Positions 19,333 to 32,788 of a stretch of DNA of 64,000 nt are shown here, one piece after another. The DNA is from a bacterium (GTDB taxonomy: Bacteria; Patescibacteriota; Saccharimonadia; Saccharimonadales; Saccharimonadaceae): NCBI GenBank assembly GCA_030530825.1, contig JAUMUF010000001.1, forward strand, positions 510,757 to 574,756. Reading direction: 5' to 3'. Both the position numbers and the translations under genes were made by a program. The notes beneath the pieces are model-generated. The model searched no databases and was not told where the DNA came from. It saw only the letters and a list, made by a program, of their open reading frames with translations. Numbering within the stretch: the stretch's first letter is position 1; each line of letters starts with the position of its first letter.

Positions 19333-20250
19333 CTAAGCGCCAATCTTATCCTTCTTATTGCCCCGTTTGGCGTTTCTTTCGATATAATCAATTATTTTAC
19401 CAGCGACGTTGCGGTAGGTGATTTTTTCGATACCAAATCCGGGCGAAGCATTAACTTCCAAAACCAAAGGTCCCCGCTCAGAGCGCATCAAATCAACACC
19501 TGCGATCGAAAGCCCCATAGCCTTAGCCGCGCGCACGGCCATTTTTCGTTCTTCTGGCGTGAGTTTGATCGGCTCACCCAAACCGCCTTTATGAAGATTG
19601 CTTCTGAAATCATCATCAAGGCTCTGGCGCTTCATTGAAGCCACCACTTGCGAACCCACCACAAACGCACGGATATCGGTGCCGGCGGATTCCTTAATGA
19701 ATTCTTGAATCAAAATGTTAGTCCCGTCGGAGTTATTGAGGTAAAATGCTTGAAGAACGGACTTGGCAGCCTTTTTGGTTTCAGCCAAAACCACGCCATT
19801 GCCGTGCGTTCCGCGAGCCAACTTGATGATCGCAGGCGTGCCGCCAATTTCTTCGAGCAAATCATCGATGTCGGCGGTGTTTCGAGAAAGGACGGTTTTT
19901 GGAATCGAAACGCCAGCCTTAGCAAGCAGCTGCGTCGAACGAAGTTTGTCGCGCGCGCGAGTAATCGCCAACGATTTATTAACAAAAAACGCCTTTGGGT
20001 AAATCGCTTCCAGCTGACGCACAACAGAGGTGCCATATTTGGTCATATAACTAGCAATGCGTGGAATAATCACATCGTATTTTTCAACACTTTTACCATC
20101 AAAAAGCACCTTGGGATTCTTATCATCGATCGAAATATAACAATCGCGATAGGCAATAATATCAACTTCGTGACCGCGGCTTTCCGCCTCTTCTTTTAGT
20201 CTTTTGGTTGAATAATTCTCTTCAGAGTTTGACAAAATTGCAATCTTCAT
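19333..20250 (-). CDS. rimK: RimK-type ATP-grasp glutamate ligase
   Basis: RimK-type enzymes add glutamate (or similar amino acids) to a carboxyl end such as that of ribosomal protein S6, using ATP. The 305-aa length is typical. An N-terminal MKIAILSNS fold is followed by the ATP-grasp lid (PAIIKLARGTHGNGV), the FIKESAGTDIRAFVVG strand and the metal site VLEVNASPGFG. The ATG directly abuts the stop of the upstream ATP-grasp/RimB fusion gene, so the two form an operon. Whether the target here is S6 or another protein or peptide is unknown. Confidence 0.9.
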   Translation of the reverse strand: MKIAILSNSEENYSTKRLKEEAESRGHEVDIIAYRDCYISIDDKNPKVLFDGKSVEKYDVIIPRIASYMTKYGTSVVRQLEAIYPKAFFVNKSLAITRARDKLRSTQLLAKAGVSIPKTVLSRNTADIDDLLEEIGGTPAIIKLARGTHGNGVVLAETKKAAKSVLQAFYLNNSDGTNILIQEFIKESAGTDIRAFVVGSQVVASMKRQSLDDDFRSNLHKGGLGEPIKLTPEERKMAVRAAKAMGLSIAGVDLMRSERGPLVLEVNASPGFGIEKITYRNVAGKIIDYIERNAKRGNKKDKIGA

Positions 20251-21630
20251 TTACAAATCCCTTTCTTCTTCATCATCAGGCAATCCCTGCCCTAAATTCA
20301 CATCTATCAAAAAGCCCGTTTCGCGCAAAAGTCGCCGCCCGATCAAGATCGGATAACGCAAATGCGCGCGCCTCGCCAGCGTAAAGCGACTCTCGAAAAC
20401 TCGCCCGCCAATCTCAATTTTTTCGAAAATCACAAAACGCGTTTCGATGCCATTAGAGTTCTTCACCTCTGTAACTTCAAAGTTTTCCGTCACAATTTCT
20501 CGCCCCGTATATTCTGGACGATTTTTGGAGAAAAGCACAAATCGCAATTTCTGAACACCATTTTCTTCAAAAACTTCCGCCCTTTCGCAGTCGATCGAAG
20601 AACTCCACGCACCGCTGTCGATTTTAGCGGGAATTTCAGCAATTTCGAAATTCGGCAAATTAACCCGCTCAGCACGACCAATTTTCAGCACAGAATTTTT
20701 GATAGTAGCCGCTGCAAAAAAGTTAGCAAGTTGGCGCTGATACTCAACTGAAAACTCACCACGACCTCTGTTAATCGTGCCGGGCATTGCATTAACTTCA
20801 AACAATCGCCAGCCGTTTTTAGTCAGGCCAAAATCAGCAGAATAAAATCTATCTGCTCCAATCGCGGCAAGTTTTTCATCAATTTTAGCACAAATCTCAA
20901 GCAAATCTTGCGGAATTTTTTCCTTTTCGAGTAAAAAAGTCGTACCGCCATAGCCAATATTGGACTTCAAGCCACCTTCGGGCGGAGTTCGAAGCGTCGC
21001 AAGAATCGCCTCGCCATTGATGATTATCACCCTGAAATCGTGACGACCCTCAACGATATTTGGCACGCCGCAATCGGTTTCAATAAATTCTTGAACTTGA
21101 AGTGGAAAATCTTTACCAAATTCCGCCAGATTAAAATCAGATTTTTCACCCACAAAAACGCCGGCCCCAGAATTTCCCGATAATGTCTTGACCGCGACCT
21201 TGCTGGTTGGGATTTTTTCGAATGCGGCGATAATTTCTGTCTCATTTTGCGCCAAAAAACTTTTTGGTTGAAATTCTTCCAAAAGATTGTATGTTAGGTT
21301 TTTGTCAGAACAAACTTTTCGAAATTCAACAGAATTAATCTGTGGCACGCCGTCACCTTCAAAGTAATCTTTGGCCCATAGAACATCAACTTTTATTTTA
21401 CCTCGTTTTTCGAAGATAAATTCACCGTCTTTCTCTACCTGAACCCAGTGTTTCGAAAAAACCCCATCACCCAAATAAGTCCCGTTCCCCATCAAAAAAA
21501 CAGGCTCAACACCTCTAAACTCCAACTCCGAGAAAAGTTCGTGATACGCCTGCTTATAGTGCTCGGCTTTAAATTTAAATTCTTCTATGTCTCTTTTCTC
21601 TCTAAAAAATCCAAAAACCGGCTTGCGCAT
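20251..21630 (-). CDS. ATP-grasp ligase fused to a RimB-like aspartic peptidase
   Basis: This two-domain protein has 459 aa. Residues 1-315 form an ATP-grasp ligase (VAVKTLSGNSGAGVFVGE lid, RHDFRVIIINGE, LFEVNAMPGT metal site). Residues about 318-459 match the RimB/'ATP-dependent zinc protease' family (PF05618), which has a retroviral-type aspartyl protease fold, with the signature IPAKIDSGAWSSSID and the conserved RYPILIGR end. In other bacteria RimB trims the glutamate tails made by RimK. Having a ligase and a trimming peptidase on one chain next to a second ligase is unusual. AAAGGAG precedes ATG 21630, after a leader of about 40 nt. Confidence 0.82.
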   Translation of the reverse strand: MRKPVFGFFREKRDIEEFKFKAEHYKQAYHELFSELEFRGVEPVFLMGNGTYLGDGVFSKHWVQVEKDGEFIFEKRGKIKVDVLWAKDYFEGDGVPQINSVEFRKVCSDKNLTYNLLEEFQPKSFLAQNETEIIAAFEKIPTSKVAVKTLSGNSGAGVFVGEKSDFNLAEFGKDFPLQVQEFIETDCGVPNIVEGRHDFRVIIINGEAILATLRTPPEGGLKSNIGYGGTTFLLEKEKIPQDLLEICAKIDEKLAAIGADRFYSADFGLTKNGWRLFEVNAMPGTINRGRGEFSVEYQRQLANFFAAATIKNSVLKIGRAERVNLPNFEIAEIPAKIDSGAWSSSIDCERAEVFEENGVQKLRFVLFSKNRPEYTGREIVTENFEVTEVKNSNGIETRFVIFEKIEIGGRVFESRFTLARRAHLRYPILIGRRLLRETGFLIDVNLGQGLPDDEEERDL

Positions 21631-22076: not shown

Positions 22077-23450
22077 TTATTGAGTTTTTAAGCCGTACAA
22101 AATCCGCCCATGAGATTTATCGAAAACATTAGACTTTCCACCAAGCAACAAATTATCAAAAAGCATCGGATCGTCGATATTTTTCTCGATATATTGCCAG
22201 ATTTTTTGCCCGCCGTTATAATAACTCAAATCCTTAAACCATGGCAGCTCATCCGTCCCGCGGAAGATTCGCTGAGTGTTTTTGTAGGCTTTTGCCTGCG
22301 CTTTTTGAATGTCTTCGTCCGAAATTTCTCCAGTTTTTGAATCTTCCAACGCGTAAATTCGCCAGTTTATTTCATAAGCATCACGGAAGCTCGCGCCCAT
22401 AAATTCCGCCATTCCGGCTGTCAAATAATGTGGAACACCCGCTTCGACATATTTACCAGAAACCGCCATTTCCATCGCCCGCGCAATCCCTTCCTCGGTG
22501 TCAAGATAGCCATCCAACCCCTTTCGAAGTGGCGTAATTCCGTAGCCTTCGCCAATCTGCGCACGGTAGTAATGCGTGCAGATTTCGTGCGCAACCAAGC
22601 CCTCCAATTGCTTTTTCGAAACGCCAGCGCGGTTTTTCGAAATTGAGATTTGCCGCTTGGAGGAGTTTACGCTTATCGCGCCAGAATCCTTCCAAGAAAT
22701 TTCATATTTCGAAAATTCTGTTCCGTCTTCGAAGCTACCCAAAACTTTTTGGAAAACTTCGCCAATTTCTTGGGCAGAAAATTTATCACCATCGCGTGGC
22801 GCGTCCGGAACTTGCGCCAATTGCTCAGCAAAAAGCATTCGCACGCCGTCACCAAAAGCCTCAAAAACCTCGTTCGAAGGCTTAAATCTCTCGCCGGTTT
22901 TCTCCAAATCCACATCTGGAAATTCCGCCAAAAGCGACTCGCGGATCCATTTTCCGTGACCCGAAAATTCCTTCTTCGAAAGCTTAGATAATTTCTCGCC
23001 GAGCAAAGATTCAAAAGTTTCGCGTTCTGGCGCGCCCCAGATTTCGCGGTTGTATTTCATAAATTCTTCGCGCGCGGCGGATTTTTCTTCTTCCGTTTGT
23101 GCCGATTTAAAATCCAAGCCCGCCCGCAAAAATTTATAGCGTTTGGCTTGAACTTCAATCTGCGAGCCGTAGATTTCTTGCTCGATTTTTGACAAATCTT
23201 GGTCATTTTCGAGAATCTCAATCGCGCTTTCGATGCTTTTTCCAAGCTCGAAAACACTTTCCGGCGTGTAATTTTGATAATTATTTTTAGGCTTGTAGAG
23301 ATATGGATTTTTGTGAAACTCCGCCTCCGCCTCTTCAGCATTTGCTGGGCGAAATTTGCTCAAAATCGCGGGATCGATGTTTTCATAAGCCTCGCGAGTT
23401 GAGAATTTTTCTGGCGACTTTTCAAAATTCGGCGCGTTAAATTTATTCAT
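22077..23450 (-). CDS. DUF1704 / MATCAP-like metallocarboxypeptidase
   Basis: Matches the DUF1704 family (bacterial 'QEGLA motif' proteins; the eukaryotic relatives MATCAP1/2 remove C-terminal residues from tubulin). In 457 aa the zinc motif HEICTH is at about residue 285, followed by the downstream motif DTEEGIARAME, equivalent to QEGLA. The N-terminal half is helical and charged. It is transcribed from its own TTGACT-17-TAATGT promoter (23460-23488) and lies beside the two ATP-grasp ligases and the RimB-like peptidase. Genes of this family often neighbour ATP-grasp ligases, which suggests shared work on C-terminal peptide tags. Confidence 0.8.
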   Translation of the reverse strand: MNKFNAPNFEKSPEKFSTREAYENIDPAILSKFRPANAEEAEAEFHKNPYLYKPKNNYQNYTPESVFELGKSIESAIEILENDQDLSKIEQEIYGSQIEVQAKRYKFLRAGLDFKSAQTEEEKSAAREEFMKYNREIWGAPERETFESLLGEKLSKLSKKEFSGHGKWIRESLLAEFPDVDLEKTGERFKPSNEVFEAFGDGVRMLFAEQLAQVPDAPRDGDKFSAQEIGEVFQKVLGSFEDGTEFSKYEISWKDSGAISVNSSKRQISISKNRAGVSKKQLEGLVAHEICTHYYRAQIGEGYGITPLRKGLDGYLDTEEGIARAMEMAVSGKYVEAGVPHYLTAGMAEFMGASFRDAYEINWRIYALEDSKTGEISDEDIQKAQAKAYKNTQRIFRGTDELPWFKDLSYYNGGQKIWQYIEKNIDDPMLFDNLLLGGKSNVFDKSHGRILYGLKTQ

Positions 23451-25490: not shown

Positions 25491-25877
25491 TTAACTTTCT
25501 TTCTCGAATTGGGCGGTCTTCAACACTGCTTCAAGTTCCTTTCCAGCCACAAAGCGCACCTTGGCAGCCTCAATGTCGCCAGCACTCACCGCCTTGGCGC
25601 TGTCCTGCCCCTTGCTTTTGAGCGTGATATGAAAATAGCCCAGATCGCCAAGATGGACGGTTTCGCCCGCCTCCACAGAATAGGCGATTTCGTGGGTTAG
25701 CGCCTTCAATACAGCCATAATATCAATGTCCGAAACGGTTGTCGAGCGTCGCGCAATCCGCTTGGTCAGCGTATCGAGATCGACGAGGCCAGCGGAGATA
25801 GCGGTGGCGTAGTGTTTTTTGGGGTCGTCGAGTTTGCGAGGATTGGCTTTTTGAACCGCTTTGAATTTGATAGACAT
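25491..25877 (-). CDS. HU-family DNA-binding protein of the Bacteroidetes type
   Basis: HU-type proteins bind and bend DNA. The 128-aa protein fits the longer Bacteroidetes HU-related family rather than bacterial HU: KFKAVQKANPRKLDDPKKHY at the start, then LTKRIARRSTTVSDIDIMAV, GETVHLGDLGYFHITLKSKG and FVAGKELEAVL. ATG 25877 follows AAAGGAG; a frame reaching 26009 exists but would read through the repeat array. Upstream stand six copies of a 22-bp repeat. A Patescibacterial genome would not be expected to carry this subfamily by descent, so transfer from a Bacteroidetes neighbour is likely (inference). Confidence 0.85.
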   Translation of the reverse strand: MSIKFKAVQKANPRKLDDPKKHYATAISAGLVDLDTLTKRIARRSTTVSDIDIMAVLKALTHEIAYSVEAGETVHLGDLGYFHITLKSKGQDSAKAVSAGDIEAAKVRFVAGKELEAVLKTAQFEKES

Positions 25878-25897
25878 AAAGAGTTGCTCCTTTTCTG

Positions 25898-26029
25898 AAC
25901 TTGTCGAGAAATCCATGACAACTTGTTGAAAAAGATTTGTGAACTTGTCGGGAAAATTTTCTACACTTGTTAAGAAAAAATTCTCAACTTGTTGGCAAAA
26001 GATTGGCAACTTGTTGCAGATTTTACCCG
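25898..26029 (-). repeat. Six exact-period 22-bp direct repeats upstream of the HU-like gene
   Basis: The motif AACTTGTYG starts at 25898, 25920, 25942, 25964 (CACTTGTTA variant), 25986 and 26008, exactly 22 bp apart each time. A/T-rich bases fill the rest of each unit. The array ends about 20 bp before the HU start codon. The period equals two helical turns, as in operator arrays or plasmid iterons. The 330-bp stretch 25878-26208 otherwise holds only the promoter at 26118. Confidence 0.9.
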
Positions 26030-26117
26030 CAAATGTTCTTAGTTAATCTTAATCGCTTTCGCAGTTTTATTTTACCGTTTTTTCAAGCAAAAATCAAGCA
26101 AATTATGTTTATTTTTA

Positions 26118-26146
26118 TTGACAAACTTATAGCGACTTGCTAATAT
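26118..26146 (+). promoter_or_regulatory. Promoter of the secreted protein gene
   Basis: TTGACA, 17-bp spacer, TAATAT. Confidence 0.8.
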
Positions 26147-26208: not shown

Positions 26209-26586
26209 ATGAAGAAGTTCTTTTCAAAATTATTCATAACAGCCCTGCTTGCTCTCGGATTCGTTGGGGCAACAGCCCTTGAAGATAATACCGTTAAGGC
26301 AGACACTCGTTCGATTTCGTTTGTTATCGATAAGTCACTAACAAACGGAAATCCTATCCTGAACTCAAGAATCGTAATTGCCGATGCTTACGATAACGAC
26401 CAATCAACCTCTAGACAAATGGTCAACTATCAATCGGCTCGTTCGTTCAGAATACAGACAGGAAGAAGTTATAATGTTGTTGTTGAAGGCAGATATCAAT
26501 TATTTGGCTTCCTGCCCGTTCCGTTCGGAAGGCATGTTAAGACCGTGTATGTTCCACACGGAGCAATAATGGTTTATATCAAATAG
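26209..26586 (+). CDS. Small secreted protein, 125 aa
   Basis: A clear Sec signal peptide: basic MKKFFSKLF, a hydrophobic core, and probable cleavage after VKA near residue 32. The mature part is about 90 aa, strand-rich, with no cysteines. AAAGGTAATAAAA precedes the ATG. No family is recognised. A second membrane-protein gene follows 38 bp later, probably on the same transcript. Confidence 0.65.
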   Translation: MKKFFSKLFITALLALGFVGATALEDNTVKADTRSISFVIDKSLTNGNPILNSRIVIADAYDNDQSTSRQMVNYQSARSFRIQTGRSYNVVVEGRYQLFGFLPVPFGRHVKTVYVPHGAIMVYIK

Positions 26587-31843: not shown

Positions 31844-31872
31844 ATTTTAACATGTTTATATTTATTTTTCAA
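31844..31872 (-). promoter_or_regulatory. Promoter of xfp, leaderless
   Basis: TTGAAA, 17-bp spacer, TAAAAT, 6 nt to the ATG. Confidence 0.85.
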
Positions 31873-32737
31873 TCAACAGAGAAGATAACTTCTTAACTCT
31901 TTTTTCATAATTAATAAGTCCATCTCTAGACATTACCATCTTTTTAGTTTTATTACCCCTATTGACGACCCTGTTAATTAACCTCATCTTAGACTTCTTC
32001 CTTCTGCCGATAGAAAGCTTATTATCTCGTGTTATGGTAATTCCAGTAACACTAAATCCAGGCTGACCCTTCTTTATTATTTTTCCACTCTTCATATTGT
32101 TTATGGGTAGTTTAGTAGATTTAATAACTGATTCAATGCCGCCCTTAAGCCTGGATAACTCGCCCCTCCTCCGCGAAGAGATCGTAATGTCATCAACATA
32201 AATTGATATATTGATATTATTTTCTTTGGCATATTCGCCCAATCTAATTGCCATTTTCTTCGTAGCCAAAATAGCTAACGAAGAGCTAGTGGGCATTCCT
32301 TGTGCCAATACGCCCTCGTTATTAGTACATAAATATGTTAATAAATTCGCCACATAGGCGGTAAAACCTAATTCATATCGAAAAACATACCTAATTCGAT
32401 CACTAGAAATAGACGGAAAGAAATTTTCAAAATCATACTTTAGCATCTCTTTTGCGCCCTGGTGAATTTTGGCGTTAATTACCGAGTCTCCCCCTCCTCT
32501 ATACCCCATCACTATTTCTGGCATTTTTTGAACTTCTGGCTTCAAAATTCTAGAATGTATTTTTTTCTGGACAATTTTCAAATCACCCCTAGGCTCATCA
32601 ATTCTCCTACACTTAAAGCCTTCTTTTTTACATTTATAAAAAGTGTGTACACTCTTATTATTTACTATATGTAAAAGATCATCCTTGTCAATCTCAAGAA
32701 TTCTACATAGTCTATTTAAAGATTTCAACTTAGCCAT
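31862..32737 (-). CDS. Retron-type reverse transcriptase
   Basis: Retron RTs copy part of a linked structured RNA into multicopy single-stranded DNA; known retrons work as anti-phage systems with an effector. From ATG 32737 the protein has 291 aa, the usual size. It carries the general RT motifs (KYDFENFFPSI, QGMPTSSSLA, catalytic YVDD at 180-183) and both retron hallmarks, NAxxH (NAKIH, 88-92) and VTG (230-232), plus a basic thumb region at the C-terminus. TTG 32785 would add 16 residues; neither start has a strong SD. Upstream on the same strand stand a 70-aa membrane protein gene and about 265 nt of probable non-coding RNA under a strong promoter. Confidence 0.9.
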   Translation of the reverse strand: MAKLKSLNRLCRILEIDKDDLLHIVNNKSVHTFYKCKKEGFKCRRIDEPRGDLKIVQKKIHSRILKPEVQKMPEIVMGYRGGGDSVINAKIHQGAKEMLKYDFENFFPSISSDRIRYVFRYELGFTAYVANLLTYLCTNNEGVLAQGMPTSSSLAILATKKMAIRLGEYAKENNINISIYVDDITISSRRRGELSRLKGGIESVIKSTKLPINNMKSGKIIKKGQPGFSVTGITITRDNKLSIGRRKKSKMRLINRVVNRGNKTKKMVMSRDGLINYEKRVKKLSSLLIEK

Positions 32738-32788
32738 GACAAAATCTAAAATCCATTTCAATGAATTGCAGATTTTGGTGCTCAATTA

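Follow-up and report, generated by a model that had tools for sequence, protein, structure and literature searches.

Canonical HU proteins show little sequence preference in DNA binding and are classically non-specific. The clades of one part of the HU superfamily, HU-HIG, were reportedly defined in a paper of 2017. Here we describe an array of six 22-bp repeats that adjoins an HU-HIG gene in a Saccharibacteria-like genome, and a survey of comparable arrays at other genes of the family. The window referred to below is the whole 64-kb stretch of DNA that was analysed. The protein encoded beside the array and its paralogs are members of the family HU-HIG/HU_rel (PF18291, TIGR01201) above the curated cut-offs.

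Several described systems resemble this arrangement in part. Plasmid iterons and their initiators share with it the even repeats of about 22 bp beside the gene for a DNA-binding protein. They differ from it in that the protein described here has an HU fold and is not an initiator, the contigs are chromosome-like, many orthogonal pairs can occur in one genome, and the arrays sometimes lie past a terminator. The ParR/parC and TubR/tubC systems likewise have arrays in cis to the gene for a dimeric DNA-binding protein; here, however, the protein has the HU fold, no ParM/TubZ motor gene was seen, and the neighbours in relatives vary (as judged from N-terminal sequences only). A further comparison is offered by BrickBuilt of Porphyromonas gingivalis, a single 23-nt repeat type that lies within a MITE and occurs at many loci (PMC4596501). 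BrickBuilt, too, is made up of repeat arrays of short period, in a genome of the Bacteroidales, but it is not described as HU-HIG-linked (PMC4596501), whereas each of the arrays described here has a core of its own at one locus. A MITE or minisatellite would have the same unit at many loci, and the core of the window array occurs at one locus only.

In the literature searched, the scope of which lay outside most subscription papers and the 2017 clade paper, no earlier description of HU-HIG-linked arrays of 21–23 bp was found. We therefore regard these arrays as new, provisionally.

Results

The 22-bp array

The array occupies positions 25898–26016 of the window (plus strand) and consists of six 9-bp cores, AACTTGTYG, at an exact pitch of 22 bp, as obtained by reading the sequence, with TRF and by a period scan. 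The preliminary description reported six repeats 22 bp apart, and the sequence bears this out, with a spacing of 22 in every case. It also placed AACTTGTYG at all six positions, which is correct for five of them. On the plus strand, units 1 and 3 read AACTTGTCG (25898–25906 and 25942–25950) and units 2, 5 and 6 read AACTTGTTG (25920–25928, 25986–25994 and 26008–26016), whereas unit 4 is degenerate and reads CACTTGTTA (25964–25972), with two changes relative to AACTTGTYG. On the strand of the adjoining gene the units are CAACAAGTTG-like.

Over the 400 bp around it, chains reach six units at period 22 and one or two at each of the other periods scanned (15–30); the maximum over all these periods in 300 first-order Markov shuffles was three. 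TRF independently calls the array, with a period of 22 and 4.5 copies. No second site with at least five units at 20–24 bp was found elsewhere in the window, and a pattern of three units, run against the whole 687-kb genome with as many as three mismatches allowed, returned this locus only. The DNA between the cores varies while core and pitch are kept, a pattern that is like that of binding sites and not that of a recent tandem duplication. We note that the unit can be written as a dyad, CAAC-AA-GTTG, although its symmetry is not significant alone (p 0.42). A CRISPR array was ruled out, because the pitch is 22 bp, the units are diverged and the gaps are 13 bp, as against identical repeats with unique spacers of roughly 25–40 bp.

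The HU-HIG gene and its surroundings

The array adjoins a gene at 25491–25877 on the minus strand that encodes a protein of 128 amino acids, the presumed reader of the array. Profile matches identify this protein as HU-HIG. It matches PF18291 over residues 1–126 with 105.2 bits (gathering cut-off 26.2) and TIGR01201 (HU_rel) with 72.6 (cut-off 68.6). The AlphaFold2 model is an HU-type fold with a pLDDT of 95.7; among solved structures, 4FMR, a putative DNA-binding protein from Bacteroides vulgatus, comes closest, and numerous HU and IHF entries come next. The array had been described as standing upstream of an HU-type gene. Its position is as described, but the gene is HU-HIG and not canonical HU.

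The start codon is the ATG at 25877 (minus strand), with an RBS, AGGAG, read at 25887–25891 on the same strand, and the array occupies the stretch directly upstream of the RBS. A possible promoter for the HU-HIG gene, TTGATT-17-TAAAAT (26069–26097, minus strand), lies upstream of the array and was assigned by consensus match only; if it is real, the array is part of that gene's leader. A better consensus match, TTGACA-17-TAATAT (26118–26146, plus strand), is the promoter-like site of a divergent gene at 26209–26586 (plus strand), which belongs to the accessory region between dnaK and dnaJ and encodes a secreted protein of 125 amino acids with no family match. None of the seven neighbouring proteins scanned gave a Rep-like match, and no NTPase motor of the ParA/ParM/TubZ type was recognised in the neighbouring ORFs.

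Three further places in the window may be of separate interest, all on the minus strand. A retron-type reverse transcriptase is encoded at 31862–32785 (best PADLOC match RT_VI, 2e-56; the NCBIfam retron St85-like match is below cut-off), a protein matching MATCAP (PF08014, tyrosine carboxypeptidase family, E 3e-17) at 22077–23450, and two adjacent genes at 19333–21630 resemble RimK/ATP-grasp ligases, as judged by sequence only.

Distribution and origin of the locus

The source genome is reduced (687 kb) and near complete (99.5%); its size and the genes it carries point to Saccharibacteria. It contains three HU-HIG genes: the window copy and two paralogs, L005 and L006. The named relatives of the window protein are Bacteroidales, and no relatives were found among viral contigs. 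HU-HIG is a family of Bacteroidota type, present here in a small Saccharibacteria-like genome.

No HU-HIG gene was found in four same-genus genomes. In two of them (L107 and L108), dnaK and dnaJ are separated by an interval from which array, HU-HIG gene and both small divergent genes are missing, and the locus therefore looks like an accessory insertion between dnaK and dnaJ; in the other two, the neighbourhood next to dnaK differs. Within the bacterial family, only 5 of 394 genomes have an HU-HIG match, the source genome included, and two of the five matches are weak ones from short contigs. When 392 genomes were drawn from across the order and a stricter limit was applied, HU-HIG was found in the source genome and in G065 only. 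In a tree of 105 rows, the three copies from the source genome and the G065 copy form one clade with full support. The HU-HIG locus reads as laterally acquired, on these sequence relationships.

A separate observation concerns an HU-HIG gene from the Saccharibacteria family (L017/L013, genome G103). It is split over two reading frames and is possibly a decaying copy, with an array of three units at 22 bp still in front of it.

Arrays at other HU-HIG genes

The second paralog of the source genome, L006, has AATGCCCTTT three times, exactly 22 bp apart, directly upstream of its start codon, together with further degenerate copies. Its pitch and place are those of the window array, and its core is different. 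We therefore carried out a survey. The first sample comprised 78 HU-HIG genes, mostly from 119 Bacteroidales genomes, and an array was defined as at least three 9-mers, with one mismatch allowed, 22 ± 1 bp apart, within 600 bp each way of the gene. On this definition, arrays were present at 28 upstream and 17 downstream sides, compared to 0–2 of 78 per side for eight control spacings, and 42 of the 78 genes bear an array once two doubtful cases are removed. Candidates set aside as probably unrelated were L098 (a 23-bp near-identical tandem repeat), the upstream side of L021 (a GGATGT-type repeat) and L096 (an array at −531).

With unchanged settings, 11 of 22 genes in a second sample, drawn from across the phylum, have an array (control spacings, 0–1 of 22). 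In the pooled samples, 53 of 100 HU-HIG genes, mostly from Bacteroidota, have an array within 600 bp. The same scan found arrays at none of six ordinary HU genes and in 3 of 154 distal blocks of the same HU-HIG loci; the comparison with the distal blocks gives a Fisher p of about 5e-23, a value that treats genes as independent although some share a genome or clade. Spacings in the refined arrays are 22 bp in 111 cases, 21 bp in 23 and 23 bp in three. The preliminary description had proposed a search of other genomes for the array and the linked gene, and such arrays indeed stand beside about half of the HU-HIG genes. The two-turn spacing and the link to an HU-like gene that it gave are supported, and the link is seen across the family. 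This linkage makes the HU-like protein the best candidate for the binder.

The other 47 genes have no detectable array. They include L005, in which none appears even with two mismatches allowed, and the G065 gene, which has only a weak three-unit chain. One clade of 16 HU-HIG proteins is without arrays, and some of its loci neighbour DUF4248 or cell-wall-enzyme genes. Some Bacteroidales have up to 18 strong HU-HIG matches per genome, on chromosome-like contigs. HU-HIG genes also occur on records filed as plasmids, some of them with arrays: among plasmid-collection records, one from Segatella hominis has a candidate array at one mismatch and a 23-bp pitch, and those from Parabacteroides distasonis and Treponema saccharophilum have candidate arrays when two mismatches are allowed. 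The T. saccharophilum gene, on plasmid pTS1 (L149), is HU-HIG-like and comes from outside Bacteroidota; upstream of it, again with two mismatches allowed, is a cluster of repeats at even spacing.

Unit symmetry and array placement

Two-fold symmetry is significant at p<0.05 in 22 of 41 arrays (median 0.68 versus 0.54); L054 was excluded from this analysis and from the Mantel test below as a near copy of L042. Examples of dyad units in relatives are CTTTAGTACTAAAG, GAACGATCGTTC and TTCCCTGCGCAGGGAA. Dyad-like units are expected for a symmetric dimer.

Long HU-HIG proteins (at least 185 residues) have the array upstream in 16 of 24 genes and downstream in none, while among the short proteins there are 25 with the array downstream, 8 with it upstream and 35 without one. 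An AlphaFold2 model of one long form, L066, consists of the HU part and C-terminal helices that resemble a winged helix. A strong intrinsic terminator separates the gene from its downstream array at L113 and L119. No convincing copies of the core were found upstream of genes that have downstream arrays. The genes on the far side of the array vary by locus (N-terminal sequences only), and no gene other than HU-HIG is constantly adjacent.

Two observations on single loci are added here. By eye, the upstream regions of L065 and L066 each seem to hold two successive short arrays, with motifs that differ between these two paralogs; and at L056 a gene with a Cas9-like N-terminus lies about 400 bp beyond the downstream array.

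Divergence of motifs between paralogs

Protein identity and core similarity are correlated (Mantel r 0.21, 0 of 2000 permutations). The core AACCACGTGGTTT is found beside proteins that are 55–70% identical in three genomes (L044, L056 and L010), and the core GATGCGCAT recurs in a related set of HU-HIG loci. In eight genomes, GATGCGCAT arrays cluster at the HU-HIG gene, and elsewhere there are only scattered matches with two mismatches.

The sister paralogs L102, L103 and L104 have coding sequences that are 87–88% identical and array-to-ATG spacers that are 81–89% identical. Their array units are mostly only 42–68% identical, with 63–84% for the last unit. The arms are of the types TATCA..TGATA, TTTCA..TGAAA and CTTGTG..CACAAG, and are changed in nearly all units; similarity between units within an array is 0.71, versus 0.58 for units at the same position of sister arrays. 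L065 and L066 have HU domains that are 90% identical, and different motifs. From these comparisons, the motifs differ between paralogs and are seen to change in concert.

Discussion

The linkage of gene and array, the pitch, the symmetry and the concerted change of motifs are explained most simply if each HU-HIG dimer binds its own array cooperatively. In our judgement, which is not a computed value, it is likely that HU-HIG is the binder of the array. It is also probable, with somewhat less confidence, that the window array is a private cluster of binding sites for the adjoining HU-HIG protein, which would assemble on it locally.

On this model, HU-HIG, with its HU/IHF fold, should act as a dimer and bind each unit sequence-specifically. 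Successive dimers, two turns apart, would occupy the same helical face and build up a local nucleoprotein complex cooperatively. The gene would travel together with its array, and paralogs within a cell would keep orthogonal motifs, so that each protein marks its own locus only. In the source genome, the first consequence is most likely to be repression of the HU-HIG gene itself, given that the probable promoter is on one side of the array and the RBS on the other. In relatives with downstream arrays, the complex would have to act without promoter overlap, for example by local DNA architecture, looping or spreading. Evidence against linking each protein to its array in this way includes the base-specific recognition that it requires, which is unusual for this fold. 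Further points against it are the 47 of 100 genes, and the clade of 16, at which no array is detected, the non-significant symmetry of the window array by itself, and the different motifs of paralogs that are about 90% identical.

The best of the alternatives is a classical cooperative operator, in which HU-HIG binds the array only to repress or activate its own gene, and perhaps that of the divergent secreted protein as well. An operator with autoregulation had been suggested in the preliminary description, and is plausible for the window copy, given the array's place between predicted promoter and RBS; the array of L006 is directly upstream too, as are those of all array-bearing long forms, and paralog-specific motifs would avert cross-talk. 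It is not supported more generally, however. The array-bearing short forms mostly have downstream arrays, with no convincing cores upstream, and arrays that follow a terminator speak against the view that, in the family, they serve only as plain operators. We consider this explanation possible, but would not expect it to be the whole answer.

A centromere-like or anchoring site, where HU-HIG and array form a complex for partition, tethering or nucleoid architecture, is more doubtful. Related HU clades have been predicted to take part in chromosome partition, the sites are evenly spaced, dyad-like and in cis to the gene for a dimeric DNA-binding protein, and their position relative to the promoter is not conserved. 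Against this, no ParA/ParM/TubZ partner was recognised beside the window array, and up to 18 HU-HIG genes per genome is far above the need for partition systems.

It is unlikely that a different factor binds the arrays and that HU-HIG is merely co-inherited. HU proteins are classically non-specific and highly similar paralogs can differ in motif; paralogs at about 90% identity with different motifs make another binder conceivable, or binding by the C-terminal domain of the long forms. However, HU-HIG is the only constantly adjacent gene, the motif differs from one HU-HIG gene to the next, and similarity of the motifs is correlated with that of the proteins.

Plasmid iterons, also raised in the preliminary description, or a minisatellite or MITE remnant of an integrated element, are very improbable: the pitch is iteron-like, the locus is an accessory insertion and some plasmid-filed HU-HIG genes have arrays, but the seven scanned neighbours gave no Rep-like match, the core is not repeated elsewhere in the genome, and the units have retained pitch and core but diverged in their bodies, as those of a minisatellite would not. 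An explanation at the RNA level is unlikely, because some arrays are behind terminators and the units are dyads in the DNA with little or no gap.

Returning to HU-HIG as the binder of its own array, we tentatively suggest that HU-HIG genes may be self-addressed loci. They would form a sequence-specific branch of HU whose own fast-changing arrays are kept orthogonal by concerted evolution, and which marks or packages its own locus rather than serving a promoter operator.

As far as we have found, no target is known for HU-HIG, and the linked array now offers a candidate cognate DNA for each member that has one. Such arrays make the specificity, cooperativity and function of HU-HIG testable, and near-identical paralogs whose motifs differ lend themselves to locating the specificity residues. 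A Bacteroidota-type HU-HIG gene with this array layout is present even in a reduced Saccharibacteria-like genome. If the proposal is true, the HU/IHF superfamily would gain a sequence-specific branch that reads arrays.
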